Assembly: GCF_003574735.1 (NCBI RefSeq)
Contig: NZ_QORW01000002.1
Location: 62,001 to 126,000 of the forward strand
Length of the DNA stretch: 64,000 nt
Source of the DNA: Dongia deserti
GTDB taxonomy: Bacteria > Pseudomonadota > Alphaproteobacteria > Dongiales > Dongiaceae
Reading direction: 5' to 3'
Below are positions 22,401 through 41,181 of this stretch, piece by piece (the first letter of the stretch is position 1; every line of letters starts with the position of its first letter). Under the pieces are notes generated by a model. The model was not told the origin of the DNA, made no database searches, and worked only from the letters and a program-made list of their open reading frames with translations. The position numbers and the translations under genes are program-made.

Positions 22401-22404
22401 AGCG

Positions 22405-23595
22405 ATGCGGATGCGCTCTGTCCTTCTGATCTGCGTCGCGCTGGCCGCTATCGGCGGCGTGTTTGTGTGGGGCAAGTATCTCCGCACCGATCCCGTGCGC
22501 GCGGAGGCCGCGATGCAGCAGGGTCCCCAATCCGCCCCGGCGCAAAACCCAGGACAGGCCCCGGAGCAGGCACGGGACAGCGGCAAGCCCGCCATCGCGG
22601 TAAAAGTCGTGCAAGTCACGCAGGACTCGATGCCAATCCGCCGCCGGACCATCGGCTGGGTCGAGCCTATCGCGACCGTGGCGGTGAAATCGCGCATCAA
22701 CAGCGTGATCATGGAACAGCACGCGCAGGACGGCCAGTTCGTGGAAAAGGGAGACTTGCTGTTCTCGCTGGACGATCGCGAAGTGAGGGCAGCCATCGCG
22801 CGCGACGAAGCGGCGATGGCCCAGCACCAGGCGGAGCTGGAGCGCGCCCGCGCCGATCTCGAGCGCACCAAGACCCTGGTCTCCAAGCAGACCGCGTCGA
22901 AGCAGACCCTTGATCAGGCGATGGCCGACGCCCGCGTCGCTGAAGCGGCGGTTGCTGCCGACAGGGCGGTGCTGCAGGCCGATCGGCTGACCCTGTCCTA
23001 CACCACCATCACCGCGCCGATCTCGGGACGGCTCGGTTCCATCGGCGTCACGCCAGGCAACCTGGTCCAGGAGAACGGCGAAATCGCGTTCGTTACGATC
23101 ACGCAGATGCAGCCGATCCGCGTTACCTTCACCCTGCCCGACCGCGACCTCGACGCGCTGCGCACGGCGCTGGCGCAATATCCGCCGGCACCGGTTCAGG
23201 TCTTCACCAAAGGCGACAAGATTCCGCGGGCGAAGGGCAGCCTCACTTTCATCGACAGTGCGGTCGATGCCGCCTCCGGCACCATCACGGCCAAAGCCAA
23301 ATTCGCCAACGATAATCTGGCGCTCTGGCCCGGGCAGTATTTCGATGTCGAGGTGGAGCTCGGCGTGCAGGCCGAGACCGCGATCATTCCGACCGTCGCC
23401 TTGCAGGTGGGCCAGGAAGGAATGTTCGTCTACGTGATCACGCCGGAGAACACCGCCGAGATGCGCAAGGTCGCGGTCTCCGTCAGCGACGGGGACAGGA
23501 GCGCGATTTCGTCCGGTCTGCAGCCGGGCGAGCGCGTAGTGGTGGATGGGCAGCACCGCCTCTCTCCCGGTGCCCGGGTGATGGTGGTGAAGTGA
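22405..23595 (+). CDS. RND efflux periplasmic adaptor (HlyD/MdtA-like)
   Basis: A 396-residue membrane fusion protein. It has an N-terminal hydrophobic anchor or signal (residues 3-20), then a low-complexity linker rich in Pro/Gln. The lipoyl half-motifs are at VAVKSRINSVI...GQFVEKGDLLFSLDD and TITAPISGRLG. An alpha-hairpin lies between them (~residues 130-190, heptad-like Glu/Ala/Arg), and a beta-barrel and membrane-proximal domain follow. It links the inner-membrane pump to an outer-membrane channel. Its gene follows tetR by 4 bp and precedes the pump by 49 bp. No outer-membrane factor gene is in the operon. Confidence 0.9.
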   Translation: MRMRSVLLICVALAAIGGVFVWGKYLRTDPVRAEAAMQQGPQSAPAQNPGQAPEQARDSGKPAIAVKVVQVTQDSMPIRRRTIGWVEPIATVAVKSRINSVIMEQHAQDGQFVEKGDLLFSLDDREVRAAIARDEAAMAQHQAELERARADLERTKTLVSKQTASKQTLDQAMADARVAEAAVAADRAVLQADRLTLSYTTITAPISGRLGSIGVTPGNLVQENGEIAFVTITQMQPIRVTFTLPDRDLDALRTALAQYPPAPVQVFTKGDKIPRAKGSLTFIDSAVDAASGTITAKAKFANDNLALWPGQYFDVEVELGVQAETAIIPTVALQVGQEGMFVYVITPENTAEMRKVAVSVSDGDRSAISSGLQPGERVVVDGQHRLSPGARVMVVK

Positions 23596-23644
23596 GGCTG
23601 ATCGCAGCGGCGTGCGTCAAACGCCGCCACAGCTAGGACATTGG

Positions 23645-26600
23645 ATGAACATCTCCGAGTTCTGCATCAGACGCCCGATCGCGACCCTGTTGATGTCGGT
23701 CGCTCTAATCGTCGGCGGATTGTTCGCGTTCGGTCTGCTGCCGGTCGCCGCGCTGCCGCGCACCGACTATCCCGTCATCAACGTCTCGGCCGACCTGCCC
23801 GGCGCCTCGCCCGATACCATGGCGAAATCGGTCGCGACGCCGCTCATCAAGCAGTTCACGACGATCGAAGGCATCACGAGCATCAGCGCCACCAGCACGC
23901 AGGGCGACACCGACATCGTCATCGAGTTCGACCTGGATCGCGACATCGACGACGCCGCGGCGGACGTGCAATCGGCGATCTCTCGCACCACGCGGCGATT
24001 GCCAGAGGACATGGAGGAGCCGCCGAGCTACCGCAAGCTTAATCCCGCTGATCAGGCGATCCTCCTGCTGGCCTTGCGCAGTAACGTAATGGCGCTGTCG
24101 CAACTGGATGACTTCGCCCAGCAGGTGATGTCGCCGCGCCTATCGACGCTGACCGGCGTGGCTCAGGTGCTGGTGTACGGCAGCCAGAAATACGCCGTCC
24201 GCATCCAGGTGGATCCGAATGCGCTCGCCTCGCGCGATATCGGGATCGACGAGCTGCAGGATGCCGTTCGTGTCGCCAACACCATCACGCCAGTCGGGGT
24301 CATCAAGAACCAGGATCAGTCCCTAACCATCCAGGCGGAGACCAACCTCAATAACGCAGCGCAGTTCGCCGATCTCATCATCGCGACGCGCGATGGAAAG
24401 CCGGTCCGGCTGCGCGACGTCGCCAAAGTGATCGATTCGGTCGAGAACAATGAAAGCGCAAGCTGGTTCGAGGGCACCCGTTCGATTGTGCTCGCGATCC
24501 AGCGCCAGCCTGACGCCAATACCGTCGAGGTGGTGGATCGGGTCAAGGAGATGCTGCCTCAGTTCCGCGAGGAGCTGCCGCCGACCGTCTCCATCGACCT
24601 GCTGAACGACCGATCCAGATCCGTCCGCGAGGCGGTCCATGACGTCGAGTTGACGCTGATGCTCACCATCGCGCTGGTGATTCTCGTCATTTTCCTGTTC
24701 CTGCGCCGGTTGAATGCGACTTTCATCGCGAGCGCGGCCGTTCCGATCTCCCTGATCGCAACGGTCGGCGGCATGTATCTCCTCAATTTCTCGATCGACA
24801 ACATCTCGCTGTTGGCGCTGACGCTGGCTGTGGGTCTGGTGGTGGATGACGCCATCGTGATGCTGGAGAACATCGTCCGACACATCGAAGAAGGCATGCC
24901 GCCATTCGAAGCGGCTTTGAAGGGTAGCCGCGAAATCGCCTTCACGATCATCTCCATCACCGTTTCGCTGGTCGCAGTCTTCATTCCCGTGCTGCTGATG
25001 GGCGGCGTAGTGGGCCTTATCTTCCACGAGTTCGCGGTCGTGGTGACGATGGCGATCGCAGCCTCGGCGTTTGTCTCCCTGACACTGACCCCGATGCTGT
25101 GCGCGCGGATGCTGAAGCCCCTGCGGCATGGCCCAGTGCGGGCCGGGCTGTTCGACCGGGCACTCGAGGGCGGCTTCAACGCCATGCTGGCGGTCTATGA
25201 TTCGATCCTGAAGTTCTGCCTGCGTTTCCGGCCGTTGATGCTCATGGTATTCCTGGCGACCGTAGTGGGGACAGCCTGGTTCTACGTCACCATTCCCAAG
25301 GGCTTCTTCCCGCAGGAGGACATCGGCCAAATCTATGTCTCGACCGAGGCGCGCGAGGACATCGCCTTTCCTGCAATGGTGGCGCTGCAGCAGCAAGTGG
25401 AAAGCGTGTTCCGCCGGTCGCCCCATGTGACGCAGGTCGCCAGCATCGTCGGCAGCGGCGGCGGGTCGCCCAACAGCGGCCGCCTGTTCGTGGAACTGAA
25501 GCCGAAGGGCGAGCGTCCCGAGCTCGACACCGTCCTCAACGAGCTGCGCCGCGAGCTCTCGCAGATCGCGGGTATTTCCGCCTACATGTCGCCAGTCCAG
25601 AACCTGCGGCTCGGCGGACGAACCTCGCGCAGCCAATACCAGTTCGTATTGCAGGCCGTGGACCAGGATGCCTTGTTCTCGTGGTCCGAAACGATGGCGG
25701 AGGCTATGACCCGCGACCCGCATTTCGCGGACGTCAGCAGCGACCTGGAAGCGAGCGCGCAGCAGGCGACCTTGATTGTCGATCAGGACAAGGCCAATGC
25801 CCTCGGCATCTCGTCGGACCAGCTGCGTTCGACGCTCTATTCCGGCTTCGGAACGCGGCAGATCTCTACGATCTACGCCACCGGCGACAATTATTCAGTT
25901 GTGGTCGAGTTTGATCCGAGCATTTCCTGGAGCCCGGACTTGCTCAACACGGTGTATGTGCGCTCCGCATCCGCAAAGCTCGTTCCCATCGGCGCTTTCG
26001 CCGAAGTGCGACGCACTGTTGGCGCGCTCAGTATCAACCAGTTGGGCCAGCTGCCAGCCGTCACCATCTCGTTCAATCTGCCGCCGGGAGTCTCTCTGGG
26101 CGACGCCGTCGAAAGAACGGAGCAGCTGCGCACTGAGATTGGGCTGCCCAGCACCATCACCTCCACCTTCTCAGGTAGTGCCCAGGTGTTCCAGGACGCG
26201 CTGGACAACCAGGGACTGCTGATCCTGGCAGCCGTGCTGACGATCTATATCGTCCTCGGCATGCTGTACGAGAGCTTTGTCCACCCGTTCACGATTCTAA
26301 CCGGCCTGCCCTCCGCCGCCATCGGCGCCTTCATCGCCCTGCGCATGGTGGATATGGACCTCAGCGTGGTGGCGGTCATCGGCATCCTGATGCTGATCGG
26401 CATCGTCAAGAAGAACGCGATCATGATGATCGACGTCGCCTTGACCCTGCAGCGCGAGGGCATGGATTCGAAGGAGGCGATCTATCGCGCCTGTATCTTG
26501 CGTTTCCGCCCAATCATGATGACGACCTTTGCCGCCATCATGGGCGCCCTGCCGATCGCCCTCGGCGCCGGCGCGAGCGCCGAGCTGCGCCAGCCGCTCG

Positions 26601-26740
26601 GCATCGCGGTCGTGGGCGGCTTGGTTCTATCGCAGATCCTGACGCTATTCATCACACCCGTCCTCTACCTCTACATGGAGAGGGTCTCCGAACTGCTGCG
26701 TGGTCTGCGGAAGACGGGACTGGACCGCCGGACGGCCTAA
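23645..26740 (+). CDS. RND multidrug efflux transporter (AcrB/MdtB-like)
   Basis: A 1031-residue proton-driven pump, normal for the family. The N-terminus ISEFCIRRPIATLLMSV is the canonical first membrane segment. The transmembrane proton-relay aspartates are in LVVDDAIVMLENI (~residue 400). A second half repeats the fold with GMLYESFVHPFTILTGLP and VKKNAIMMIDVAL. The open frame extends upstream to 23612, but the ATG at 23645 gives the expected MNISEFCIRRP start. Substrates are unknown; the HAE1 type usually exports hydrophobic or amphiphilic drugs, dyes or plant compounds. A TolC-like channel must come from elsewhere. Confidence 0.93.
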   Translation: MNISEFCIRRPIATLLMSVALIVGGLFAFGLLPVAALPRTDYPVINVSADLPGASPDTMAKSVATPLIKQFTTIEGITSISATSTQGDTDIVIEFDLDRDIDDAAADVQSAISRTTRRLPEDMEEPPSYRKLNPADQAILLLALRSNVMALSQLDDFAQQVMSPRLSTLTGVAQVLVYGSQKYAVRIQVDPNALASRDIGIDELQDAVRVANTITPVGVIKNQDQSLTIQAETNLNNAAQFADLIIATRDGKPVRLRDVAKVIDSVENNESASWFEGTRSIVLAIQRQPDANTVEVVDRVKEMLPQFREELPPTVSIDLLNDRSRSVREAVHDVELTLMLTIALVILVIFLFLRRLNATFIASAAVPISLIATVGGMYLLNFSIDNISLLALTLAVGLVVDDAIVMLENIVRHIEEGMPPFEAALKGSREIAFTIISITVSLVAVFIPVLLMGGVVGLIFHEFAVVVTMAIAASAFVSLTLTPMLCARMLKPLRHGPVRAGLFDRALEGGFNAMLAVYDSILKFCLRFRPLMLMVFLATVVGTAWFYVTIPKGFFPQEDIGQIYVSTEAREDIAFPAMVALQQQVESVFRRSPHVTQVASIVGSGGGSPNSGRLFVELKPKGERPELDTVLNELRRELSQIAGISAYMSPVQNLRLGGRTSRSQYQFVLQAVDQDALFSWSETMAEAMTRDPHFADVSSDLEASAQQATLIVDQDKANALGISSDQLRSTLYSGFGTRQISTIYATGDNYSVVVEFDPSISWSPDLLNTVYVRSASAKLVPIGAFAEVRRTVGALSINQLGQLPAVTISFNLPPGVSLGDAVERTEQLRTEIGLPSTITSTFSGSAQVFQDALDNQGLLILAAVLTIYIVLGMLYESFVHPFTILTGLPSAAIGAFIALRMVDMDLSVVAVIGILMLIGIVKKNAIMMIDVALTLQREGMDSKEAIYRACILRFRPIMMTTFAAIMGALPIALGAGASAELRQPLGIAVVGGLVLSQILTLFITPVLYLYMERVSELLRGLRKTGLDRRTA

Positions 26741-26847: not shown

Positions 26848-28971
26848 ATGACGGTCATTTCCCAGGCATCGGACATTATCCCGGCCGCTGCGGATTCATC
26901 GGCGGATCCCCGTGGTCCGGCTCCTGTGCCAGCGGTGGCGCAGCACGACCCCAGCGTCATCTTCAACGCTTTCGATGCCTTGCAGTCGCAAACGGCGGTG
27001 CTCGGCCACGACGGCAAGATCCTCTACGTCAACGAAGCCTGGCGGCAGTTCGGCCTGCAGAACGGCTATGCTGGGGATGATCTCGGCGTTGGTCGCAGCT
27101 ATCTTGACCATGCCGATGTCTCGATCGTCGATGAGACCGGCAACGAGTTCAATGTACGCACAGCGCTGGAAAAGGTGCTGAACGGCGTCTCCTCCGGATT
27201 CTACGGAGAATACGTCTCCGACTCTCCGCGCGAGCGGCGGTATTTCTCGGTCTATGCCGGACCGTATGTCGCTGGCGATGAGATCGGCGCGGTCGTGGTC
27301 CATACGAACATCACGTCCCGCCGCTCCGCGATGGCCGAGCTCGAGGCAGAGCGCGAGATCCTGCAATCCATCGCCGCCGGCGGGCCGCTCGATGAAATCC
27401 TGCACGACCTTACCAAGACGTTTGAGAACCTCCTGTTTGGCAGCCAGTGCGCCATCGCGGCAGTCTTGCCGGAAATCGCGTCGTTCCAATCGGTCACCGG
27501 CACGCCGCGGGCGGCGCGGGTGTTCGACAGCATCTCTCGCCTCACGCTCGCCAGGCGCATCCACTTGACGGGCGATCTGTGCGCGCAGTCGGATGTTCTC
27601 GACCTTGCCAGTCTCGGCGAAGTGTGCGGCGAGGCGGGGAGCAAGGTGGCCAATGAGCTTGCTGCCACCTCCGGCATGCTGCTGACCATCCGCGGCATGG
27701 ACAAGCGCCCGATCGGCCTGGTTGCCATGCTCGGCCGCACGATCTTCACCATGTCGGTCACGGAGAGCGCCCTGATCCAGCGCCTTTGCGCGGTCGCCGG
27801 TATCGCCATTCTGTCCGCAAGGAGCCGCACTGCGCTGAAGCAGAGCGAGGAGCGCTATGCCCTCGCCTTCGAAGGCGCCAACGATGGGCTATGGGACTGG
27901 GACATGCGCAACAACGAGGTGTTCCGCTCTGCCCGCTGCTACGAGATCCTCGGCTACAAGTCCGATTCCGAAAACGCTAGCCGGATGGACAATGTCGGCT
28001 GGTGGATAGCTCAGATTCATCCCGACGACCTGGCGGCCACATCCGCCATCGTCGAAAAGTGCCTGGAGGATGGCGAGAGCGCCTTCGCGATGGAATATCG
28101 CATGCGTCGGGCGGACAACAGCTATTGCTGGATCTCCGATCGCGGCGCGGTGATCCGCGATGCCGAGGGCCGGGCCTGTCGTGCCGCCGGCTCCATTACC
28201 GACATTTCTCCCCGCAAGCTCGCGGAGCAGCAGCGCCGCGCGCTCGAGGAGCAGCTGCGGCAGACGCAAAAATCGGAGGCGCTGGGCACGTTGGCCGGCG
28301 GCATCGCGCACGACATCAACAATACGTTGGTGCCGATCCTCGGGACCGTCGACTTGATGCTCTACGATGCCTCCGACGAGCAGATGACGGAGTCTCTCAA
28401 GGACATTCAGAACGCGGCAACCAAGATCAGGGATCTGGTAAGGCAGATCCTGGCCTTCAGCCGCAATGGCGGTTCAGAGCGGTCGGAGATCGACCTGGTC
28501 GCCGAGGTCGGCGTCGCGCTGCGTATGCTGCGCTCCATGGTGCCGACGACCATTTCCCTCGACTTCGACCCCAGGATCGAGCGTTTCGACGCCGCGGTGA
28601 ATCAGACCCAGCTTCATCAGGTGATTATGAACCTGGTGAGCAACGCGGCGAGCGCGATCGGTTCGAACAAGGGCGCCGTCCGGATCTCGGTCGACGAGAT
28701 CGAGGTGAATGATGCGCGCAAGACCGCCGAGCAGCACGTATCCGCCGGCAAATTCTGCCGCATCTCGATCGTGGACAGCGGGTCAGGCATCGCACCTGAC
28801 GTCATGGCGCGGCTGTTCGATCCGTTCTTTACCACGAAAGGAGTAGGTAAAGGCACTGGCCTTGGCCTGTCCGTCGTCCAAGGAATCGTGCGCGAGCATC
28901 ACGGCTTTATCGAAGTCAGCAACGAGCCGGGAGCAGGTGCAAAATTCGATGTTCACTTTCCGAGCTGCTAG
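26848..28971 (+). CDS. Sensor histidine kinase (PAS-GAF-PAS-HisKA-HATPase)
   Basis: A 707-residue soluble kinase with no membrane segment. A PAS domain (~40-160) has AVLGHDGKILYVNEAW. A GAF-like domain (~170-325) follows. A second PAS/PAC (~335-465) has DGLWDWDMRNNEVF and RMRRADNSYCWI. The phospho-acceptor is His488 in GGIAHDINN. The HATPase (~585-705) has NLVSNAASA, DSGSGIAP and GKGTGLGLSVVQG. Such GAHDINN-type kinases usually phosphorylate a receiver, and a receiver gene follows 29 bp downstream. The signal is unknown; PAS/GAF suggests redox, light or a small ligand. There is no strong ribosome site. Confidence 0.9.
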   Translation: MTVISQASDIIPAAADSSADPRGPAPVPAVAQHDPSVIFNAFDALQSQTAVLGHDGKILYVNEAWRQFGLQNGYAGDDLGVGRSYLDHADVSIVDETGNEFNVRTALEKVLNGVSSGFYGEYVSDSPRERRYFSVYAGPYVAGDEIGAVVVHTNITSRRSAMAELEAEREILQSIAAGGPLDEILHDLTKTFENLLFGSQCAIAAVLPEIASFQSVTGTPRAARVFDSISRLTLARRIHLTGDLCAQSDVLDLASLGEVCGEAGSKVANELAATSGMLLTIRGMDKRPIGLVAMLGRTIFTMSVTESALIQRLCAVAGIAILSARSRTALKQSEERYALAFEGANDGLWDWDMRNNEVFRSARCYEILGYKSDSENASRMDNVGWWIAQIHPDDLAATSAIVEKCLEDGESAFAMEYRMRRADNSYCWISDRGAVIRDAEGRACRAAGSITDISPRKLAEQQRRALEEQLRQTQKSEALGTLAGGIAHDINNTLVPILGTVDLMLYDASDEQMTESLKDIQNAATKIRDLVRQILAFSRNGGSERSEIDLVAEVGVALRMLRSMVPTTISLDFDPRIERFDAAVNQTQLHQVIMNLVSNAASAIGSNKGAVRISVDEIEVNDARKTAEQHVSAGKFCRISIVDSGSGIAPDVMARLFDPFFTTKGVGKGTGLGLSVVQGIVREHHGFIEVSNEPGAGAKFDVHFPSC

Positions 28972-29000
28972 CCATGCAGCACTGGCCTGGAGAAACTGAC

Positions 29001-29378
29001 ATGCATGTTCTGCTGATCGACGACGAACAGATGGTGCGCAAGATCGTGCGCAAGATGCTAGAGCGGAGTGGCCATCAGGTGACCGAAGCCGAGAACGGGA
29101 AGCTCGGCCTGGAGCAGCTGAAGACTGGCGGCTTCGATCTGGTCATCACCGACATCATCATGCCGGAGATGGAGGGAGTCGAGACGCTGGTGACCGTGCG
29201 CGAGCAATACCCGGACGTAAAGGTCATCGCCATGTCCGGCGGCGGGCGAACCGGCAACATCGACTTCCTGGGCGCCGCGGAGAAGCTGGGTGCCTCCGCC
29301 ATCCTGCACAAGCCGTTCACGCTGGGTTCGCTGACCACCGCGATCGAGACCACCTTCGGCGCGCAGAAGGCGTCCTGA
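29001..29378 (+). CDS. Single-domain response regulator
   Basis: A 125-residue CheY-like receiver with no output domain: acidic pair Asp7-Asp8, phospho-acceptor Asp51 in VITDIIMPE, and the conserved Lys in LHKPF near residue 103. The frame extends upstream to 28974, but the ATG at 29001 has GGAG 8 bases away. It lies immediately downstream of the PAS/GAF kinase, so it is the obvious phospho-target. Without an output domain it must act through protein contact. It is clearly paralogous to the receiver at 41182-41598. Confidence 0.9.
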   Translation: MHVLLIDDEQMVRKIVRKMLERSGHQVTEAENGKLGLEQLKTGGFDLVITDIIMPEMEGVETLVTVREQYPDVKVIAMSGGGRTGNIDFLGAAEKLGASAILHKPFTLGSLTTAIETTFGAQKAS

Positions 29379-29385
29379 TCTCCGG

Positions 29386-31512
29386 CTACTTGTCCTGGCT
29401 CTGCTGCAAGCGCTGAGCCTGTCGCTGCAGATAGAACCCTTCGGTCGACAGCGGATAGACTCCGAGCGGCACCGGCGTGCCTTCGCCGATGGCGGTCCCG
29501 GACAGATGCCCCAGGCCCGCGCAGACGGCGGCGATGACCATACTACTGCTGTTCAAGCCGCTGATGGAGGAGCGCAGCAATGCCTTGGCGGCGCCGTCGG
29601 CAAAGGTGTTGAGCGCACTGAGGGTCTGGCGTTCGGGCCAGTCGTGATCGGCCAGATCGCCCGCGACCGTGTTTGCGCCGGTGGCGGCCACCTGCTGAAA
29701 GTCCTTCTGGTCGAGGCTAAGCCGGATCGCGACATTGCGGCACACGCGATGGATCAGCGCGATGCGCGGCGCCAAGGTCGGCCATGAGCCGAAATAGGCG
29801 TCTCCAATTTCCAACACGACAAGCTGGCGCTCCTGTTCGCTGAGCAGGCTGAGCTGGTCCAGGACCAGACGCAGTCCGCTCTCGTCGTCAATGAAACGCC
29901 GATTGATCGGCGCAACGATAATCGCCCGCTTCTTCTCCCCCCGCATCTGCTGGATCTGGCCGACCAACCTGCGGAGGATCACTGAATTCAGCGTCGCTTG
30001 CAGCTTCGGATCGTCATAGGTTACGCAGAATTCGCTGAGCCCGAGCAGTTCGCCCGCGACCTTCAACGTGACCTTCATTCGATAGGCGGTTACCGCCTGT
30101 CGCCGCACGTCCCAGATCGGCTTGTAGAGCAGCTGCAGATCCTCGATCTCGACCGGCGTGGCTTGCGCGCCCTGATCGCTCGCAGCCGTGCTCGCAGCGT
30201 AGCCGCTATCCGCAGAACCAGCAGCCTGGTCGCCTAGCGGCCGAGTGATCGGGACGGCCTTGAATTGCGCGGGCTTGCCGGCCAGTGAATCCAGCCGCGC
30301 TGCAAGCGCCGGCACAATGACGCCGCCACCGCCAATCGGCGCCGGCGATTTCACATCGGACGCGCTTTGCGCCTCATGGGCCGAAGAGAAGTCCGCCATT
30401 CTTCCATGCGGCCGCGGGGCACCTTCTACCAGGTAGCTTCCGTATCGCTTCGCCATCTTGATCGGGACGACCGGATAGCCGTCAATCTGCAAGGCAGACT
30501 CATTCTGCACCTGCACTTTGGCAGAGGGCGATTGCGGCGTTCCGCCAGTGGCATGGTGAAGATGGGCTTCCTTCACAGCGGAAAAATCGGGCAGGCGACG
30601 GTTCGGACGCGCAGGATTCTGGACCAGACCCACGCCTGTCTTGTCTGCGCCCGTGGTCAGCGCGACCGGGTAGCCCAGAGGCGGCAACGGTTTCCCCAGC
30701 GCACGCCCTACCTCGCGCGCCGCATCGCCAGCGGTTTCAGTGGTCGTCGCCTGCGCCCTGTCGGCAAGACCCGAGAGATCCAAGGTCGGCCCGCCCGCCC
30801 GCTGGGCGTCGGCGACCATCCGACCTCGAGTCATGCGGCCGCCCTCGACGGGAAGAATCTTGTACTTGTCTGTCCAGGGCGTGAATGGCGAGCTCAACGG
30901 TTGCTCGTCCGACGTCTCGGCAGCGCCGGCCTGCGCCGGCTTGCCGAGCAGGGTCGCCTCGTGGATCGCGGTCACGGCGTCGGGCGGCGTGTCCAAGGTA
31001 TCGCGACCGACGCGGGTCACGGTGGCGTTCAGGCGGATCTCCGCGAACGCCGCATCGTAGCCGAAGAGCTTCTGTCGGATTTGCGCCGCCGCCACGTACA
31101 TCAGAGCGGAGGCCTTCTGTTCCGTCAGGTTCGGAAAGATCACCAGATATTCGTAGTCGCTAATCTGCGTGAAGATGTCCGACTCGGTCAGCATCCGGCG
31201 CAGCGTCGCCTCGACCAGCATGTGGACCTGGTGCTCGACCTTGGACCATCGATCGCCAAGATCAGCGCGCACGCTCTCGATGTTCAGCAGCTGGAGCTGA
31301 CCCGCGGAGAACTGATCCAGCGATTGACCTTTCGGCAGCATGCTGAGGACCGCATTGGCGGCCGCAGGCGACAAGGCCGGCCCGGCCGTGCCGGTTTCAT
31401 CGGCAGTGTCGCCTGTCCCTTGCTCCGCTTGCTGCGGCTGATCGTCCCGCCGTTCGTCCTTCGGACTCTTCTCGTCAGCGATCAGCGAGGAAAGCTTGTC
31501 CCACAGCTTCAT
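29386..31512 (-). CDS. Protein with degenerate GGDEF and EAL domains
   Basis: A 708-residue protein without an obvious database name that I can recall. Residues ~60-170 look like a GGDEF fold in which the active-site stretch reads SDYEY (residues 118-122; context TQISDYEYLVIFPN). Residues ~458-690 look like an EAL fold starting LLYKPIWDVR (canonical YQPI at Tyr463), but the EAL triad is replaced by RMK (478-480). Between them are ~290 residues of low-complexity linker. There is no signal peptide or membrane segment. It should be catalytically inactive for cyclic-di-GMP and may bind nucleotide or act as a scaffold. It is convergent with the kinase/receiver pair, 7 bp apart. Domain reading is inference from pattern. 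Confidence 0.6.
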   Translation of the reverse strand: MKLWDKLSSLIADEKSPKDERRDDQPQQAEQGTGDTADETGTAGPALSPAAANAVLSMLPKGQSLDQFSAGQLQLLNIESVRADLGDRWSKVEHQVHMLVEATLRRMLTESDIFTQISDYEYLVIFPNLTEQKASALMYVAAAQIRQKLFGYDAAFAEIRLNATVTRVGRDTLDTPPDAVTAIHEATLLGKPAQAGAAETSDEQPLSSPFTPWTDKYKILPVEGGRMTRGRMVADAQRAGGPTLDLSGLADRAQATTTETAGDAAREVGRALGKPLPPLGYPVALTTGADKTGVGLVQNPARPNRRLPDFSAVKEAHLHHATGGTPQSPSAKVQVQNESALQIDGYPVVPIKMAKRYGSYLVEGAPRPHGRMADFSSAHEAQSASDVKSPAPIGGGGVIVPALAARLDSLAGKPAQFKAVPITRPLGDQAAGSADSGYAASTAASDQGAQATPVEIEDLQLLYKPIWDVRRQAVTAYRMKVTLKVAGELLGLSEFCVTYDDPKLQATLNSVILRRLVGQIQQMRGEKKRAIIVAPINRRFIDDESGLRLVLDQLSLLSEQERQLVVLEIGDAYFGSWPTLAPRIALIHRVCRNVAIRLSLDQKDFQQVAATGANTVAGDLADHDWPERQTLSALNTFADGAAKALLRSSISGLNSSSMVIAAVCAGLGHLSGTAIGEGTPVPLGVYPLSTEGFYLQRQAQRLQQSQDK

Positions 31513-31694
31513 TGTCTAAAATGCCCAGCATGCCCCAACGCAACGACCAGCGCCAATTCTCGACGCAGCGCTGGGTTGCCAATAACTGTAGCGCCTAAGA
31601 GGAACCCTATCTCAATAATACTGAAGAATGGCCTAATACATTCCTATGCCGAATGGCCTACTCGGCTCCATGCGTGGCGAGTCGCCGAAGCGCG

Positions 31695-32627
31695 TTAGAG
31701 TTCGCTGCGCCTCGGCATGTCCGCGCCGCGGCGGGAGCAAGTGATCGACGCGGCGCGCGCGGCAAAGGTCAGGAGCGCATTCAGGTCGTCCGCCGACAGC
31801 GTCGCGAGGCCGTCCGGCGACAGGCTGCCATGCTCGGCAAGCCATGTCAGCAACGCCGCCTGGAAAGTGTCGCCGGCGCCGACCGTGTCGATTACCTTGA
31901 CTGCGCGCGCGCTGACGCGTGCCGCGACACCCTGCTTGGTGGCTGCCATGGCGCCGACCTCGCCCATGGTCGCGATCGCGATGCCGGCGCCGCGCGCCAG
32001 CCAATCGGCCAGCACGCTTTCCACAGACGCCCCTGGATAGAGGAACTCGATGTCCTCCACACTGGCCTTCACGAGATGCGCTTGCGTAGTCAGGGCTGCG
32101 ACCCGCCGGCGCCACAGCTCCGGGTCGGGAACGATCGAGGGGCGGATGTTGGGATCGTAGGAGATGAAGCGTCGCGCTCGCTCGCGGCTCACCAATGCTT
32201 CGAGGCTGGAGGCGGTTGGCTCCAGGGCCGTCGTGTAGGAGCCGATATGAACGACACGAACGGCATCGGGCAGCCGTGCCGGCAACTCCGGTCCCTCAAG
32301 CGAGCGGTCTGCGGTCCCGCTGGTATAGAAGGAATAGGTCGGCACGCCCTTGTCATCCAGCGCCACGATCGCCAGCGTAGTCGGGGCGTTGGTCCGCACG
32401 ATCAAGTCGACGTCGATCCGCTCGCTCTCGAGGTAGGCGATCAGCCGACGGCCGAACGGATCGGTCGAAACCTTGGAGAAGAAGGCGGTGGACTGGCCGA
32501 GGCGGCTCAGGGCCACCGCAACGTTGAGCGGCGATCCGCCGACCCGCGCGTCGAGCGCGATGCTCGAACTGGAGCTGCTGGGGTTGGCAAAGACGTCGAA
32601 CAGTGCATCGCCGCAAGTCAGGATCAT
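31695..32627 (-). CDS. PfkB-family sugar kinase (fructokinase-like)
   Basis: A 310-residue ribokinase-fold kinase. The N-terminal GDALFDVF and GGSPLNVAVALSRLG (~residue 30) and the C-terminal DTVGAGDTFQAALL (anion hole and catalytic Asp, ~residue 250) are standard. Final gene of the hexose ABC operon and 15 bp after the isomerase gene, so its substrate is probably the isomerase product: fructose (to fructose-6-phosphate) or D-xylulose. Fructokinase is the best guess from sequence style. A 182-bp spacer with two GAATGGCCTA direct repeats (31627, 31652) separates it from the next gene. Confidence 0.85.
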   Translation of the reverse strand: MILTCGDALFDVFANPSSSSSSIALDARVGGSPLNVAVALSRLGQSTAFFSKVSTDPFGRRLIAYLESERIDVDLIVRTNAPTTLAIVALDDKGVPTYSFYTSGTADRSLEGPELPARLPDAVRVVHIGSYTTALEPTASSLEALVSRERARRFISYDPNIRPSIVPDPELWRRRVAALTTQAHLVKASVEDIEFLYPGASVESVLADWLARGAGIAIATMGEVGAMAATKQGVAARVSARAVKVIDTVGAGDTFQAALLTWLAEHGSLSPDGLATLSADDLNALLTFAARAASITCSRRGADMPRRSEL

Positions 32628-32642
32628 TCGGCAGCCTGCGGC

Positions 32643-33323
32643 TTAGAGCTTCGCGTAGTCGGGCACGATCAACCGGTACGGCGGCTCATCCTCCTCGACA
32701 TCCGGGAAACGCGACACCATGTCAAGGAAGTAGTTGTCGGTCTCGTCGTCATTGACGGTCGAGACCTCGCCGACCAGGCAGTCGCCCCCCGCCGCCCAGA
32801 ACGAATGGACATGGCCTGGCTCCAGCGTGATCGAGCTGCCGGGATGAATCTGTACCACGCCACCCGCCGGCACTTCGTGGTCGATGCCGTCCATGCGCAC
32901 CTTCACCGGCGCGTTGTCGTCGATGCCCTTTCCCGGCTCGCCATTATAGAGCCGCACTTCGAGCGGCGCGCCGCCGCGCACGATGATATCCTCGGTCTTC
33001 ACCTTGTGGGTATGGAATGGCGTCACCTGGTTCTCGCGCGAAATCATGATCTTCTCGGCATAGACCATGCCCTTGCCGGTCTTCAGATTATCGGCACTGC
33101 CGTTGCGCACCGTGAAGAGCAGCAAGCCCAGGTTCTCGAAATCGCCGCGGCCGAAATCGGTGATATCCCAGCCAAGGCGCGCGCGAATGACCTCAGCGGC
33201 GCGATGCCTGTTGCGCTTCCAATCATCCGGCGACCAGGTAGCAAACTCCGGCAGCTTGAAGCCGAAGGAGGCAATGAATTTCTCGCCTTCGCGGATGATC
33301 TCATTCAATTCGGAGCGTTTCAT
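32643..33323 (-). CDS. D-lyxose / D-mannose-type ketol-isomerase (cupin)
   Basis: A 226-residue cupin isomerase resembling bacterial D-lyxose isomerases, which interconvert D-lyxose and D-xylulose and also D-mannose and D-fructose. Metal-binding residues are in TPFHTHKVKTEDI (His-x-His and Glu, ~residue 100) and EPGHVHSFW (~residue 165). The frame is open to 33365, but the ATG at 33321-33323 has GGAG 7 bases upstream. It lies between the ABC ATPase and the PfkB kinase on one strand, suggesting uptake, isomerisation, then phosphorylation. Confidence 0.82.
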   Translation of the reverse strand: MKRSELNEIIREGEKFIASFGFKLPEFATWSPDDWKRNRHRAAEVIRARLGWDITDFGRGDFENLGLLLFTVRNGSADNLKTGKGMVYAEKIMISRENQVTPFHTHKVKTEDIIVRGGAPLEVRLYNGEPGKGIDDNAPVKVRMDGIDHEVPAGGVVQIHPGSSITLEPGHVHSFWAAGGDCLVGEVSTVNDDETDNYFLDMVSRFPDVEEDEPPYRLIVPDYAKL

Positions 33324-33404
33324 GCGGCATCTCCAAATCATGCAGCCGGTCGGCCGGCAGTTCATGCGGCATCATATAGACGAGCCCAGGCCGTGGCGCC
33401 ACCC

Positions 33405-34514
33405 TCAGGCGATCCGCAGCTCGCTCTCGGGGTCGAAAAACACCGCCTTGTCCATGTTGAAGGCGAAGGGCACCGTGCTGTGCGGCGCCACATGCATATC
33501 CGAGCGCATGCGGCCGATCACTTCGCGCCCGCCGAGGCGGGTCACCACATAGGTATCAGCGCCGGCAGGCTCCACCACTTCGACATGGCATTCAGCGTTG
33601 ACCACGCGCGGCGAGGTGCGATCCGCCCCGCTCAGATCCGTGATCGCTTCGGGCCTCAGGCCGAAAATGACGTCGCGGCCGGCGTGGGCGCTGAGCTTGC
33701 CGTCAGCCACCTTGAGCTGCAACGGCTCGGATCCATCCCGCGTCATCACCACCGCGACTCCGCCGCCATTGGCCTCGATGCGTGCCGGGATCAAGTTCAT
33801 GGCGGGCGAGCCCATGAAGTCGGCGACGAAGATGTTGGCGGGATTGTTGTAGATCTCGTGCGGCGTGCCGAACTGCTGCAGCACGCCGTCCCTGAGCACG
33901 GCAATTTGCGTAGCCAGGGTCATCGCCTCGATCTGGTCGTGCGTCACATAGACGATGGTGGTCTTCATCGCCTGATGCAGCCGCTTGATCTCGGTGCGCA
34001 TGTCGACGCGCAGCTTGGCGTCGAGGTTGGAGAGCGGCTCGTCGAACAGGAAGACTTGCGGGTTGCGCACCAGGGCGCGGCCCATCGCGACACGCTGGCG
34101 CTGGCCGCCTGACAATTGGCTGGGCTTGCGGTCCAATAGATGGCTGATCTGCAGGGTCTTGGCGACCTCCGCCACCGCCTTCTCGCGCTCGGCCCTCGGG
34201 ACGCCGCGCATCTCCATGCCGAAGGCGATGTTCTGCGCCACCGTCATGTTGGGATAGAGCGCGTAGGATTGGAACACCATGGCGATGTCGCGCTGCGACG
34301 GATGCAGGTTGTTGACCGCGCGGTCGTTGATCCGGATCTCGCCCGACGTGATGCTCTCCAGCCCGGCGATGGTGTTGAGCAGAGTCGATTTGCCACAGCC
34401 GGATGGCCCGACCAGCACCAGGAAACCGCCCTCTTCCACCGCGAGGTTGATACCCTTCAGAGCATCGACCGCGCCGAAGCGCTTGTAAAGATCGCTGATC
34501 TCGAGGAATGCCAT
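33405..34514 (-). CDS. ABC transporter ATP-binding protein (sugar, MalK/UgpC type)
   Basis: A 369-residue ATPase with Walker [10 protein letters not shown] (~residue 37), signature [14 protein letters not shown], Walker [13 protein letters not shown], switch His in YVTHDQIEAMTL and a full C-terminal regulatory domain (residues ~245-369, with FGLRPEAI). It energises the hexose permeases encoded 12 bp upstream. It is followed after 81 bp by the isomerase gene. Confidence 0.94.
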   Translation of the reverse strand: MAFLEISDLYKRFGAVDALKGINLAVEEGGFLVLVGPSGCGKSTLLNTIAGLESITSGEIRINDRAVNNLHPSQRDIAMVFQSYALYPNMTVAQNIAFGMEMRGVPRAEREKAVAEVAKTLQISHLLDRKPSQLSGGQRQRVAMGRALVRNPQVFLFDEPLSNLDAKLRVDMRTEIKRLHQAMKTTIVYVTHDQIEAMTLATQIAVLRDGVLQQFGTPHEIYNNPANIFVADFMGSPAMNLIPARIEANGGGVAVVMTRDGSEPLQLKVADGKLSAHAGRDVIFGLRPEAITDLSGADRTSPRVVNAECHVEVVEPAGADTYVVTRLGGREVIGRMRSDMHVAPHSTVPFAFNMDKAVFFDPESELRIA

Positions 34515-34526
34515 GGCTCTACTCCA

Positions 34527-35408
34527 TCAACCCTTCACGGCACCGGCCATCAGACCGCGCACGAAGTAGCGGCCGGAAACGATATAGACGATCAACGTCG
34601 GCAATGCCGCCAGGACCGCGCCCGCAAAATGCACGTTGTATTCCTTCACGCCTGTCGAGGACGACACGAGATTGTTGAGCGCAACCGTGACCGGCTGTGA
34701 ATCCACGTCGGAGAACGACACGCCGAACAGGAAGTCGTTCCAGATGTTGGTGAACTGCCAGATCACCGTCACCACGATAATAGGACCCGAACTCGGCAGC
34801 AGGATGCGCCAGAAAATGCGGAAGAAGCCCGCCCCGTCGATCTGTGCCGCCCGGATCAGTTCGGTCGGAAAGGCGTCGTAGTAGTTCCGGAAGAACAAGG
34901 TCGTGAAACCGAGGCCATAGACCACATGCACCAGGACGAGGCCGGACACCGAGCCGGCGAGGCCAACCAGCCCTAGGAGGCGTGCCATCGGGATCAGCAC
35001 GATCTGGAACGGAATGAAGCAGGCGAACAGCAGCAGGCCGAACACGATGCCGTCGCCGCGGAACCGCCACTTGGTCAGCACATAGCCGTTGAGCGCGCCA
35101 AGCAGGGTAGAGATCGCGACCGCCGGCACCACCATCACGATCGAGTTGATGAAATAGGGCTTGAGGCCAGTCGGCTGCACGCCGATCTGCGCCGTCGACC
35201 AGGCGCTGTACCACGGATCGAGGGTGAAGAGCGCCGGCAGGGACATCATGTCGCCCTGCCGGATCTCGTCCAGCGGCTTCACCGAATTGACCAGCATCAC
35301 ATAGAGCGGTACCAAGTAATAGCCCGCGAAGAAGAGGAGGCCGGTATAGATAAGCGCACGCACCACCACATTGGTGCGCACCGCCGTTTCCTGGGTCGCG
35401 TGAGCCAT
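34527..35408 (-). CDS. ABC transporter permease (MalG type, hexose operon)
   Basis: A 293-residue permease with six predicted membrane helices from residue ~17 (LIYTGLLFFAGYYLVPLYVM) and the EAA loop PTELIRAAQIDGAGFFRIFWRILLP near residue 190. Its ATG overlaps the preceding permease stop (TGATG). The C-terminus ends YFVRGLMAGAVKG, a common form in glucose-type systems. With the next entries it forms a glucose/mannose-like importer. Confidence 0.93.
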   Translation of the reverse strand: MAHATQETAVRTNVVVRALIYTGLLFFAGYYLVPLYVMLVNSVKPLDEIRQGDMMSLPALFTLDPWYSAWSTAQIGVQPTGLKPYFINSIVMVVPAVAISTLLGALNGYVLTKWRFRGDGIVFGLLLFACFIPFQIVLIPMARLLGLVGLAGSVSGLVLVHVVYGLGFTTLFFRNYYDAFPTELIRAAQIDGAGFFRIFWRILLPSSGPIIVVTVIWQFTNIWNDFLFGVSFSDVDSQPVTVALNNLVSSSTGVKEYNVHFAGAVLAALPTLIVYIVSGRYFVRGLMAGAVKG

Positions 35409-36343
35409 CAGCGCTTCCCTCTCCTCAATTCGCTGTAGAGATAGGGGACGATCACGCTCGCGATCATCATCAGCATGATGACGGCCGATGAGGCGCCGAT
35501 GCCCATCTCGTTGCGCGTGAAAGTATAGGAGTACATGAAGGTCGCCGGCAGCTCGGTCGCGCGGCCCGGGCCGCCGCCGGTCAACGCGATCACCAAGTCG
35601 TAGGATTTGATGGCAAGATGCGCCAGCACCACGAAAACCGACAGGAACGCCGGCCGCAGTATCGGGATGATGATCCGCCGATAGAGATTGAAATTAGAGG
35701 CGCCGTCGATCTGCGCCGCCTTGACGATCTCGTTGTCGATGCCGCGTAAGCCAGCCAGGAACATCGCCATCACGAAGCCCGAGGACTGCCAGATGGCGGC
35801 GATGACGATGCAGTAGATCGCCATCTTGCCATCTTTGATCCAGTTGAAGGCGAAGCTCTCCCAGCCCCACTGATGCATGGTGTTCGCGAGGCCAATGCCG
35901 GGGTCGAGGAACCACTTCCACGCGGTTCCGGTCACGATGAAGGACAAGGCCATGGGATAGAGATAGATCGGCCGCAGGAGCCCTTCGATGCGGATCTTCT
36001 GGTCGATCAGGATGGCGAGGAACAAGCCGATCGCCGAGCACAGCAGGATATAAAGCGAGCCGAAGATCGCGAGATTCTGCAGCGCGGTGATCCAGTTCCT
36101 GAATCCCCACAGCTTCACATAGTTCTGCCAGCCCACCCAGTTGAAGGAGGGCAGGATCTTGGAATCGGTGAACGAAAGAACGCCCGTGAACAGGATGAAG
36201 CCGTAGACCACGATCAGGATGATGACGAAGCTGGGCGCCAGCACGACCTTCGGCAAAGCGCGCTGCAGCCATTCAACCGTTCCCGCTGAAGCGCCGGCCG
36301 CAGCTTTCGCCGCCGCGACCGGAATCTCCTGGGACACACTCAT
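35408..36343 (-). CDS. ABC transporter permease (MalF type, hexose operon)
   Basis: A 311-residue permease, with a membrane segment starting at residue ~29 (VVLAPSFVIILIVVYGFILF) and the EAA loop DNEIVKAAQIDGASNFNLYRRIIIP near residue 225. The frame is open to 36427, which would run through the intercistronic hairpin. The ATG at 36343 has a strong GGAGG 5 bases upstream, so I use it. It follows the binding-protein gene by 100 bp containing that hairpin. Confidence 0.93.
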   Translation of the reverse strand: MSVSQEIPVAAAKAAAGASAGTVEWLQRALPKVVLAPSFVIILIVVYGFILFTGVLSFTDSKILPSFNWVGWQNYVKLWGFRNWITALQNLAIFGSLYILLCSAIGLFLAILIDQKIRIEGLLRPIYLYPMALSFIVTGTAWKWFLDPGIGLANTMHQWGWESFAFNWIKDGKMAIYCIVIAAIWQSSGFVMAMFLAGLRGIDNEIVKAAQIDGASNFNLYRRIIIPILRPAFLSVFVVLAHLAIKSYDLVIALTGGGPGRATELPATFMYSYTFTRNEMGIGASSAVIMLMMIASVIVPYLYSELRRGKR

Positions 36344-36386
36344 CCCGTCCTCCAAACCTCGCCTGAAACGCCGGTTGTGCTCGTCG

Positions 36387-36423
36387 GAGCGGCAGAGCTG
36401 GACTTGATCCAGCTCTGCCGCTC
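36387..36423 (-). repeat. Strong hairpin between binding-protein and permease genes (hexose operon)
   Basis: Perfect 16-base arms (GAGCGGCAGAGCTGGA and its complement) around a 5-base loop, starting 21 bases after the binding-protein stop. This is the strongest intercistronic stem in the window. No U-run on the transcribed strand. It probably stabilises the upstream message or attenuates read-through into the permeases. Confidence 0.8.
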
Positions 36424-36443
36424 TCATCGAGTGTCGGTTCTTG

Positions 36444-37700
36444 TTACTGCGCGCCCGCGACGGCGTTCGCGAGTTCTTCAGCGGCGGTCTTGGAATCCAT
36501 TTCGCCGTTGAAATGCGCGGTGATCACGTCATAGGTCGCGACCTTGACGGCCGCAGGCGCAGCATGGCCATGAGCCATCGAGCCGAACAACGTGCCGTTC
36601 TGGCTCGCTTCCGCCAGTTCCTTCATGCCCTTTTGGCCGCAGGCATCGAGACCCGATCCTTCAGCGTCAGTGCGGGCCGGAACCGAGCCCTTGATCTTGT
36701 TGAAGGCCACCTGGAAAGACGGGTTCATGATCGCGCTCGCCAGCTTCTCCTGCGCTGCCTTGCGATCCTCACCGACCTTGAACATCACGAACTGGTCGGA
36801 ATTGAAGGTGACGGTGCCCTGCGTTCCCGGGAAACGGAAGCACAGGAAATCCTTTTCCGGCACCTTGCCGGCATTCAGGAACTCGCCCTTTGCCCAGTCG
36901 CCCATGAACTGCACGCCGGCCTTGCCTTCGATCACCATGGCCGAAGCCAGGTTCCAGTCGCGACCGGAGAAATTATCGTCGACATAGGTGCGCAGCTTTG
37001 CCATGCGATCGAACGCCTGCACCATCGTGTCGGAGTTGAGCGCGGACTGATCCAGATCGATGAAGGCCTTCTTGTAGAATTCCGGACCGCCGGTTGCCAC
37101 CACGACAGCGTCGAAGATGGTGGCTTCCTGCCAAGGCTGGCCGCCATGGGCAACTGCCGTGTAGCCGGCGCCCTTGATCTTGTCGAGCGCGGCGATCAGC
37201 TCGTCCCAGCTCGTGGGCTGCTTCAGGCCGAGCTCATCGAAGATCTTCTTGTTGGCCCACACCCAGTTGGTCGAGTGCACATTAACCGGCGCGGCGACCC
37301 ACTTGCCTTCGTATTTCGAGAACGCCTGCAGGGCCGGAGGCACCACCTTCTCCCAGCTTTCTTTGGCGGCAAGATCGTTGAGATCAGCCACCACACCCTG
37401 CTTTGCCCAATCAGTGATGTCGAAGCCCAGCATCTGCACGGCAGTCGGCGGATTGCCCGCGGTGACGCGCGCACGGAGCGCCGTCATCGCCTGCTCGCCG
37501 CCGCCACCCGCGACCGGCATGTCCTGCCAGTTGACGCCTTGCTTTTCGAGGTCTTCCTTGAGCACGTTCAGCGCCGCGGCCTCGCCGCCTGACGTCCACC
37601 AATGCAGCACTTCCACCGACTCCGCCGCGGCCGCCGTCGCCGAAAAGAGTGCGACACCGGCCACCAGGGCCGACGTCGACAGCAGTTTTGAAACCTTCAT
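36444..37700 (-). CDS. ABC transporter hexose-binding protein (glucose/mannose type)
   Basis: A 418-residue solute-binding protein. Residues 1-26 are a signal peptide ending ATAAAA. The mature start is [18 protein letters not shown], the hallmark opening of glucose-binding proteins of the GtsA/GlcS sort, and SVPARTDA near residue 345 is also typical. A strong GGGAGGA lies 4 bases from the ATG. Downstream isomerase and PfkB genes point to mannose or a related sugar as physiological cargo. The upstream 229-bp spacer should hold the promoter. Confidence 0.92.
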
Positions 37701-37929
37701 TCTGTCCTCCCACAGTCAGTTAAAATGGATGGTCATGTATCCGGTTGCCCTTGAGCACGCTCACGCGGAGCCACCAAGCTGACCTCGGCCCGGTGTCCAT
37801 GGTTAGGGGCTCTGGCTTGTCATTTGTTCCTGCCCGCCTCGCAGCTGGGCTGTCTTCCAAGACCTGTATTGACGGTATCCACCGCCCAGCAACACTGCAA
37901 CGGGCAACACGGCAACACGCCGGCTCGTG
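37701..37929. promoter_or_regulatory. Spacer upstream of the hexose operon
   Basis: No gene seen. It contains three copies of GCAACAC (37889, 37904, 37912) just after the lacI stop codon, and it must carry the binding-protein promoter unless transcription continues from lacI. I found no convincing LacI-type dyad here. Confidence 0.35.
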
Positions 37930-38982
37930 TCATGCCCGCTTCTCCAAACGTTCGGAGATTGGGCCGCCACAGCTTTCCCGCACTGCGAGATGAACCGCGC
38001 CGATATGGTCTTCGGCGCTATTGCGGCCAGTCTCGATCATCCTGAGGACGCTCTGGGCGGCTCGTTCGCCCAGGCCCATGACATCAACGGCGATAGTGGT
38101 GAGCGGCGGATCGGCATGCATCGCGTCCTGCACATCATCGAAGCCGATGACGGCAAAGCCGCGTCCAGGCTGGATGCCGCGGCGCCGCAACGCCAAGCAC
38201 ACGCCGAACGCCACTATATCGTTGAAGCACACAGCCGCGGTTGGCGGATTGCGCTGCGCCAAGGCCATCTCCAGCGCCTGAGCTCCCCCTTCCCGCGTGG
38301 CGGTGGTCGGGGCATGGATCGCGCCGGCAGGGTCGAGCCCCGCATCTACCAAGGCAGCGAGGAAACCTTCGAGCCTTTCGGCCCGGACCACGGAATCGGC
38401 GTAGCCGCCGAGAAAGGCGATCCGCCGATGTCCCAGCTCAAGCAGGCGCTCCACGGCCAGTCGCGCGCCACGGCGATTGTCGGGCCCGACGACCGGGATG
38501 CGGCGGCCTTTGAGACGGCGCATGGCAAGCACGACGGGAACGCCCACCGCGACCAAGCCATCCAGCGCATCGTCCGGTGTGCCGCGGGCTGCCGAGACGA
38601 TGAGGCCGGCCACCCCTTGCTCGCGCATCAGCTTGATCACCTCCGCCTGCCGAACGGGGCTCTCGGCGGTATTGGCAATGAAAGGCACGTAGCCCGCAGC
38701 CTGAAAGCTGCGTTCAATTCCGACCGCCAGCTCGGCGCAGAATGGATTGATCAGGTCATGAATGATCATGCCGACCATATTGGAATGTGCCCGGCGCAGG
38801 TTGGCGGCACCGCGATTGTAGACGTAGCCGAGGTCGCGGATGGCGGCGTTGACCCGGTCACGCGTGGTGGGACGGACGCTTTCGCTGCCTTTGAGAACGA
38901 GCGAGACGGTGGACTTGGAGACACCTGCCGCAGCGGCGATCTCGACAATGGTCACCCGATCTTTCGGGGAACCTGCTGTCAT
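37930..38982 (-). CDS. LacI-family transcriptional regulator (hexose operon)
   Basis: A 350-residue regulator: helix-turn-helix at residues ~10-32 (TIVEIAAAAGVSKSTVSLVLKG), hinge near 60, and a periplasmic-binding-like sensor domain with the usual GLIVSAARGTPDD and FNDIVAFG segments. It lies upstream of, and on the same strand as, the hexose operon, and divergent from a chemoreceptor gene. Two similar dyads TGGAACGWTCYA occur in the divergent spacer and are candidate binding sites. The inducer is probably the imported sugar or its phosphate. Confidence 0.9.
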   Translation of the reverse strand: MTAGSPKDRVTIVEIAAAAGVSKSTVSLVLKGSESVRPTTRDRVNAAIRDLGYVYNRGAANLRRAHSNMVGMIIHDLINPFCAELAVGIERSFQAAGYVPFIANTAESPVRQAEVIKLMREQGVAGLIVSAARGTPDDALDGLVAVGVPVVLAMRRLKGRRIPVVGPDNRRGARLAVERLLELGHRRIAFLGGYADSVVRAERLEGFLAALVDAGLDPAGAIHAPTTATREGGAQALEMALAQRNPPTAAVCFNDIVAFGVCLALRRRGIQPGRGFAVIGFDDVQDAMHADPPLTTIAVDVMGLGERAAQSVLRMIETGRNSAEDHIGAVHLAVRESCGGPISERLEKRA

Positions 38983-39196: not shown

Positions 39197-39351
39197 GTTT
39201 TGGGCATTTGCGCGGGCAGCACTGCGTTTGCTCAGAACCACTGAACAATAAAGTCTGACAAATTGTGTCGAAATGCGTGTGCAGTGACAGACTATTAACC
39301 CTCGCCACCCACAATGCCGGCCTTGTTTCTGTGTGCGGGGGAAACGTTACC

Positions 39352-41040: not shown

Positions 41041-41056
41041 GGGCCTTGCGCCCGCC

Positions 41057-41136
41057 TTATAGTAAAAATCAGCGTCCCTTATCAGGGTGTGATGAAAGGC
41101 AGCGCTTTATACTAGAAATCCACGGTCCCTCGTGGG
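41057..41136. repeat. Imperfect direct repeat with small hairpins between chemoreceptor and receiver genes
   Basis: TTATAGTAAAAATCAGCG-TCCCT (41057) and TTATACTAGAAATCCACGGTCCCT (41107) are two diverged copies 50 bp apart. Each ends in a small stem (CCCT-TATC-AGGG; CCACG-N6-CGTGG). They could be tandem regulatory sites or terminators. No known element recognised. Confidence 0.45.
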
Positions 41137-41181
41137 AACATTGTCGTCGTTGGTCGGTTATTCCCTTCGAGGTGCAGAATA

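Follow-up and report, generated by a model that had tools for sequence, protein, structure and literature searches.

Proteins in which a GGDEF fold is followed by an EAL fold include PA0575, MorA, PA0861 and DosP, in each of which at least one domain has kept its enzymatic motifs or is active. LapD and FimX are regulators with dead GGDEF and EAL domains; both retain the ligand-contacting residues of the EAL domain, and LapD has a membrane-spanning N-terminus with a periplasmic part. In CsrD, a membrane protein with a membrane-bound N-terminus, both domains are degenerate, and the protein acts in the RNase E-dependent decay of the CsrB and CsrC RNAs. According to PMC5635695, degenerate GGDEF/EAL proteins of E. 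coli belong to an interaction network, a precedent for protein binding by dead domains, and the partners in that network are c-di-GMP enzymes. In the RavS-RavR system (PMC6707612), c-di-GMP acts on a histidine kinase. A survey of Azospirillum GGDEF/EAL proteins (PMC5845226) mentions hybrids with a degenerate GGDEF but a conserved EAL domain. Degenerate proteins of these types are usually met singly; here we describe a family in which both sites have been lost throughout.

The gene under study lies in a 64,000-nucleotide stretch of the Dongia deserti genome (contig NZ_QORW01000002.1; hereafter the window) and is convergent with a kinase-receiver pair (Table 1). A preliminary description of its product had proposed that the GGDEF and EAL sites are both destroyed within folds that are retained, and that a disordered linker of 290 residues separates them.

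Table 1. Features of the degenerate GGDEF-EAL gene and of the adjacent two-component pair (window coordinates)
Feature	Position	Strand	Basis or remark
PAS histidine kinase (PAS, HisKA, HATPase_c), candidate partner	26848..28971	+	domain matches
Single-domain receiver, candidate partner	28974..29378	+	convergent, 7 bp from gene
Gene of doubly degenerate GGDEF-EAL protein	29386..31512	-	708 aa; stop included; 389 bits to a family profile built partly from it
Amphipathic N-terminal helix MKLWDKLSSLI, residues 2-12	31477..31509	-	low-confidence helix in model; hydrophobic-moment comparison
GGDEF fold without active site, residues 60-190	30943..31335	-	AlphaFold2, structure matches, profile alignment
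W89, invariant Trp in 36/36 aligned members	31246..31248	-	family alignment
SDYEY at GGDEF motif position, residues 118-122	31147..31161	-	profile-profile alignment
Disordered linker, residues 196-445	30178..30927	-	pLDDT mostly <50
EAL fold without active site, residues 450-690	29443..30165	-	AlphaFold2, structure matches, profile alignment
RMK at EAL triad position, residues 478-480	30073..30081	-	profile-profile alignment

The protein was modelled with AlphaFold2 from an input alignment of 36 family sequences. Both folds were predicted, rather than neither: the mean confidence of 10-residue blocks was 77-98 between residues 50 and 190 and reached 81-98 in the part that starts at residue 450, in agreement with the claim that the folds around the two dead sites (ca. 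60-190 and 450-690) are retained. The stretch between these two confident domains had mostly very low confidence, so that a long disordered linker is borne out, at about 250 residues and not at the length first given. Searches with the sequence itself returned little; Pfam gave a single weak EAL match (residues 455-571, E 1.1e-3, 18.9 bits, below the 31.3-bit cut-off), and there was no match in NCBIfam (up to E 10), PHROGs (up to 0.01) or a PDB sequence search (up to E 10). In PDB structure comparisons, all of the 50 matches listed per program were EAL or GGDEF-EAL structures. The EAL part was superimposed on BifA with a Z-score of 23.5 (rmsd 2.9, 236 aligned residues), and residues 45-686 on the tandem protein PA0575 with a Z-score of 22.2 (370 aligned residues); the high rmsd of the latter (20.6) accompanies a mutual placement of the domains that the model does not fix. 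LapD and FimX were among the nearest folds, with about 11-15% sequence identity in the matches listed. A relative that lacks the linker (L024, 439 aa) was modelled separately with a mean pLDDT of 86.6, and tandem structures topped its Foldseek list. Both proteins thus belong to the GGDEF-EAL fold superfamily, with a GGDEF fold followed by an EAL fold.

To map the active sites, the protein was compared by profile-profile alignment (hhalign) with four GGDEF and three EAL domains of its own genome that have intact motifs. At E-values of 7.6e-9 (GGDEF) and 4.8e-14 (EAL), SDYEY was aligned to GGDEF and RMK to EAL, as had been claimed. The metal-binding Asp position of the GGDEF domain is occupied by N77, and the protein has neither this Asp nor the GG[D/E]EF signature of an active diguanylate cyclase. 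In the EAL domain the ExLxR motif reads RMKVT, its Glu being replaced by R478 and its Arg by T482; the Asn is replaced by P535, the first Asp of the DD pair by R597, the Lys by A617, one Glu by S651, a second Glu by N654 and the Gln by S671, and the second Asp of the pair falls in a gap. Of the ten positions mapped, one (E568) is canonical, and the set that marks an active EAL phosphodiesterase (ExLxR, Asn, Glu, DD, Lys, Glu, Gln) is absent. The same picture emerged from the 36 aligned family members, in which the canonical residue at positions 478, 482, 535, 568, 597, 617, 651 and 671 was found 0, 6, 2, 23, 1, 0, 0 and 1 times, respectively; at positions 118-122, the residues G, G, D/E, E and F were found in 4, 5, 20, 1 and 22 members. 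None of the 36 contains a GG[D/E]EF-type or DDFG string, and two contain an E[AVG]LxR-type string (EGLMR, EGLVR), though the aligned Glu is present in none. G86, D112, F126 and L149, on the other hand, are near-invariant. That the canonical losses are common to the members while other positions are conserved indicates old, shared losses and constraint on those other positions: the family as a whole lost both active sites long ago and retained both folds. PA0575, MorA, PA0861 and DosP have the same two folds in the same order; in contrast to them, neither domain of the window protein or of the 36 members keeps enzymatic motifs.

Loss of catalysis would still be compatible with a LapD- or FimX-like receptor, which would sense c-di-GMP or another nucleotide and report its level to the kinase-receiver pair. 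The closest folds are indeed EAL domains, those of FimX and LapD among them, and E568 is kept in the window protein and in most of the members. However, the ligand-contacting residues of these receptors are missing: substitutions occupy the Asn, Asp, Lys, Glu and Gln positions of the window protein and of almost every member, RMKVT stands in place of ExLxR, and the I-site Arg is found in just 3 of the 36 (the I-site Asp in 33). As nearly all EAL ligand positions are lost, binding of c-di-GMP at the usual site is argued against, and we consider a receptor of this kind unlikely.

A CsrD-like action, in which the protein would serve as an adaptor for RNA decay, had also been suggested. E. coli CsrD is termed a degenerate GGDEF-EAL protein in PMC5635695, and its domains are degenerate like those of the window protein; it comes from another bacterial class, and the two are likened by description. 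The suggestion was not supported by hydropathy analysis. No transmembrane stretch precedes the GGDEF domain, the highest 19-residue mean within the first 66 residues being 0.97, and the highest of the entire protein (1.59) lies within the EAL fold. The membrane N-terminus of CsrD, like that of LapD, therefore has no counterpart here; with no RNA partner in view either, a role in RNA decay appears very improbable.

At the N-terminus of many members lies a short helix that is amphipathic and often basic (MIRNLLTRITAIF in L072, KWLARTLRRLAVAL in L090, MKLWDKLSSLI in the window protein), and the maximum helical hydrophobic moment of the first 34 residues had a median of 0.48 in 42 of the 43 members, compared to 0.36 in 285 other genes (p 1.8e-5; starts as called by the gene-calling script, PAS-bearing members included). 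This could be a membrane or docking helix.

The preliminary description dealt with a single protein; our searches showed it to be one member of a class-wide family. Within the order, a protein search followed by a ten-row profile detected the family in 9 of 17 genomes, its own included, and the genus has three further genomes (one just 68% complete), none of which yielded a family gene. At E<=1e-5, matches were obtained in 80 of 385 genomes and 57 of 277 genera of the class. The best E-value exceeded 1e-15 in 15 of the 80 genomes, and some of these matches may be ordinary GGDEF genes, so that the 65 genomes at or below 1e-15 are the safer count. Among the reading frames of the loci, the 36 members (the ten seeds included) scored 147-639 bits with the ten-row profile; of two proteins from the window's own genome, a GGDEF-EAL protein with intact EAL motifs scored 27 bits and a GGDEF protein 17. 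A profile of all 36 members scored at least 142 bits with 43 proteins, 42 of them in 40 loci plus that of the window; 36 of these match by construction. Domain models recognized the members poorly: at E<=0.01, Pfam found EAL in 11 of the 36, GGDEF in 5, PAS in 7 and Response_reg in 1 (a receiver fusion). NCBIfam matched 126 families, and the 25 listed were mainly PAS, kinase and c-di-GMP enzyme models.

Relatives were also sought by contig scans. The single window protein as query yielded 14 stretches that fit the pattern, none encoding a relative; a profile of five near relatives yielded one named locus among 86 candidate stretches. Named relatives were found on a contig of the Rhodospirillaceae MAG RBC011, in Azospirillum sp. 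B510 and A. lipoferum 4B (257 and 255 bits) and in Pelagibacterium sp. H642 (260 bits), the last three being annotated as hypothetical proteins. In its own genome the window protein has no paralogue at E<=1, and a weak GGDEF match at C16:34608 was rejected, since by eye it resembles a CHASE2-adenylate-cyclase protein. The locus prefixes that we tried are absent from the main text of the Azospirillum survey (PMC5845226), and a literature search, in which most subscription journals were not covered and which is therefore weak evidence of novelty, found no description of such a family or of its mechanism.

With a profile score far above that of the intact-EAL protein, Trp89 in place and both sites lost, the 708-aa protein is a member of a coherent alphaproteobacterial family and not a lone decayed gene. 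Its patchy distribution (absent from 8 of the 17 genomes of the order) might be taken as the mark of a functionless, decaying pseudogene, but the frame of 708 codons is intact, identical losses and the same newly conserved residues recur throughout the class, and two divergent members (the window protein and L024) give confident folds. We rejected this explanation, which has very little left to recommend it. The family occurs in about 17-21% of the 385 sampled genomes, mostly under Pfam cut-offs; a sizeable dead branch would thus escape domain-based counts of c-di-GMP proteins in the class.

Genomic contexts were examined up to 19 kb around 40 relatives. Genes were predicted by a simple codon-bias script with starts as called, neighbours shorter than 80 aa were excluded, and kinases and receivers were scored with profiles that started from the kinase and the receiver of the window. 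Two loci were dropped (L097, no genes called; L089, no family gene called), leaving 39 with the window included; the far class consisted of genes at least three places away, and genes two places away were in neither class. Clustering of the contexts by blastp gave no widely shared neighbour family, and a conserved operon was accordingly rejected. The signal emerged once kinases and receivers were pooled: they made up 15 of 79 immediate neighbours, compared to 7 of 263 farther genes (Fisher p 3.8e-6). The difference persisted when the window was excluded (14/77 vs 7/253, p 1.5e-5) and when its whole bacterial family was (10/59 vs 7/199, p 0.001); loci related within one bacterial family are not independent in these counts. 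Response_reg and HATPase_c were matched 11 and 9 times among the 79 neighbours by Pfam, and each at most twice (outside the 25 families listed) among 117 control genes four to five places away. A kinase or receiver is adjacent in 13 of the 39 loci, from 9 of 22 bacterial families, and in the remaining 26 none is. The orientation varies: it is the receiver that converges on the family gene in L065, L071, L076 and the window, and the kinase that does so in L069 and L096; in seven loci the genes share a strand.

As a control, intact EAL genes of the same genomes were treated likewise in 40 regions, five genomes giving two regions each; three lacked an EAL anchor (L127, L143 and L160, the last of which had been taken with no EAL hit listed for it) and were left aside, so that 37 remained. 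Kinases or receivers made up 5 of the 74 neighbours and occurred at 5 of the 37 loci, and three of the five anchors concerned are themselves receiver fusions. The excess of the degenerate family over these genes had a p of 0.03 per neighbour and 0.06 per locus. Since intact EAL genes are also found near two-component genes, the link of the family to them is suggestive, not exclusive.

The loss of both enzyme sites, together with the frequent position beside sensor-kinase genes, makes it probable that the protein acts as a regulatory partner and not as an enzyme. We tentatively favour, at a little short of even confidence, a non-catalytic GGDEF-EAL adaptor of two-component systems. We infer that its folded domains would bind the histidine kinase and/or the receiver (in the window, the products of the convergent pair), and that the bound protein would alter phosphotransfer or relay the receiver's state; the amphipathic N-terminus may anchor or dock it, possibly by contact with the membrane. 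Such an adaptor would resemble RavS-RavR in that a c-di-GMP-related input controls kinase-regulator phosphotransfer; in RavS-RavR the nucleotide itself binds the kinase. A bolder and more doubtful extension is that the family as a whole supplies third components of two-component systems: the GGDEF-EAL fold, freed of its c-di-GMP chemistry, would have been recruited as a binding partner that controls phosphotransfer between kinase and receiver, with different kinases served by different members throughout the Alphaproteobacteria. A widespread dead family with a link to kinases and receivers makes it testable whether the GGDEF-EAL fold serves as a protein-binding module for two-component systems.

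The dead domains might otherwise scaffold or tune active c-di-GMP enzymes, pairing with intact GGDEF or EAL proteins to place or regulate them. This would accord with the E. coli interaction network, whose partners are such enzymes, while the genetic neighbours of the present family are kinases and receivers. Intact enzymes do occur near some relatives. In L072 one is the next gene on the same strand; in L084 a hybrid kinase, a receiver-EAL protein, a single receiver and the family gene follow in this order on one strand, the EAL protein being two genes away; and on a plasmid of Pelagibacterium sp. H642 (L166:4902-8255) a gene annotated as a bifunctional cyclase/phosphodiesterase begins 10 bp after the relative, a dead and a live GGDEF-EAL protein possibly sharing an operon. 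Across the loci, however, such enzymes were not enriched (1 of 79 immediate neighbours vs 0 of 263 farther genes, p 0.23), and none was detected in the window between 21001 and 40000. We therefore regard a scaffold for c-di-GMP enzymes as an unlikely explanation, though some of the cases are suggestive.

The receiver fusion of one of the 36 members and the PAS domains of 7 also speak for the two-component adaptor. In L092 the family protein is fused to a receiver, with a hybrid kinase upstream. In A. lipoferum 4B (NC_016623.1, L106:1111-12394) the relative lies within a hydrogenase cluster that includes a sigma-54 regulator, in the order PAS histidine kinase, HupU, NiFe-hydrogenase large subunit, relative, hydrogenase maturation genes; the kinase domains of the PAS protein, presumably HupT, were confirmed. 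In B510 maturation genes also follow the relative, and the upstream kinase and HupU are absent from the stretch seen. Upstream of the Pelagibacterium relative, at a distance of two to three genes, are a response regulator and a PAS protein that the kinase profile did not match. Two family members were found close together at L099:6148-9443 (adjacent, on one strand) and at L088:5981-12991 (on opposite strands).

The convergent kinase and receiver of the window, pointed out in the preliminary description, are real; the two-component link is a statistical tendency of the family, and the trio of kinase, receiver and GGDEF-EAL gene is not conserved in the genus. At E<=1e-60 the window kinase matched its own genome alone (itself and one paralogue). 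The surroundings of six other relatives of the receiver or the kinase contained no family member, and in one of the five receiver loci among them (L111) a kinase adjoins the receiver. The closest receiver within the genus (67%, G009) has neither a family relative nor a kinase nearby. Three of the closest receivers of the order (G013, G001, G005), however, are those adjoining family members.

Upstream of the kinase, the window contains genes that by eye encode a TetR-type regulator, a membrane-fusion protein and an RND efflux pump (21801-26740, + strand). Upstream of the GGDEF-EAL gene, a same-strand run of carbohydrate genes (31695-38982, - strand; by eye a sugar kinase, an isomerase-like protein, ABC transporter parts and a LacI-type regulator) is separated from it by an A+T-richer gap of 182 bp; a scan of 28900-32000 found no promoter or terminator. 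Farther on, at 39265-41598 (+ strand), a chemoreceptor-like gene (by eye) precedes a second single-domain receiver (41182-41598), which scores 99 bits to the first.

The same genome encodes a second unusual EAL protein (C1:445739-446980, equivalent to L113:7734-8981), with a weak EAL match and an N-terminal part that by eye looks GGDEF-derived. It was considered as a close relative and rejected: its own profile matched none of the 36 members, and hhalign gave a probability of 0.2%. Proteins of its type are present in 16 of the 17 genomes of the order. Its gene, too, converges with those of a kinase and a receiver, the latter bearing a Fis-type HTH, a pair that we take to be RegB/RegA-like; kinase and receiver matches adjoin genes of this type in 5 of the 12 loci examined. 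The gene also adjoins two that by eye encode an HD-GYP-like protein and a LapG-like protease.
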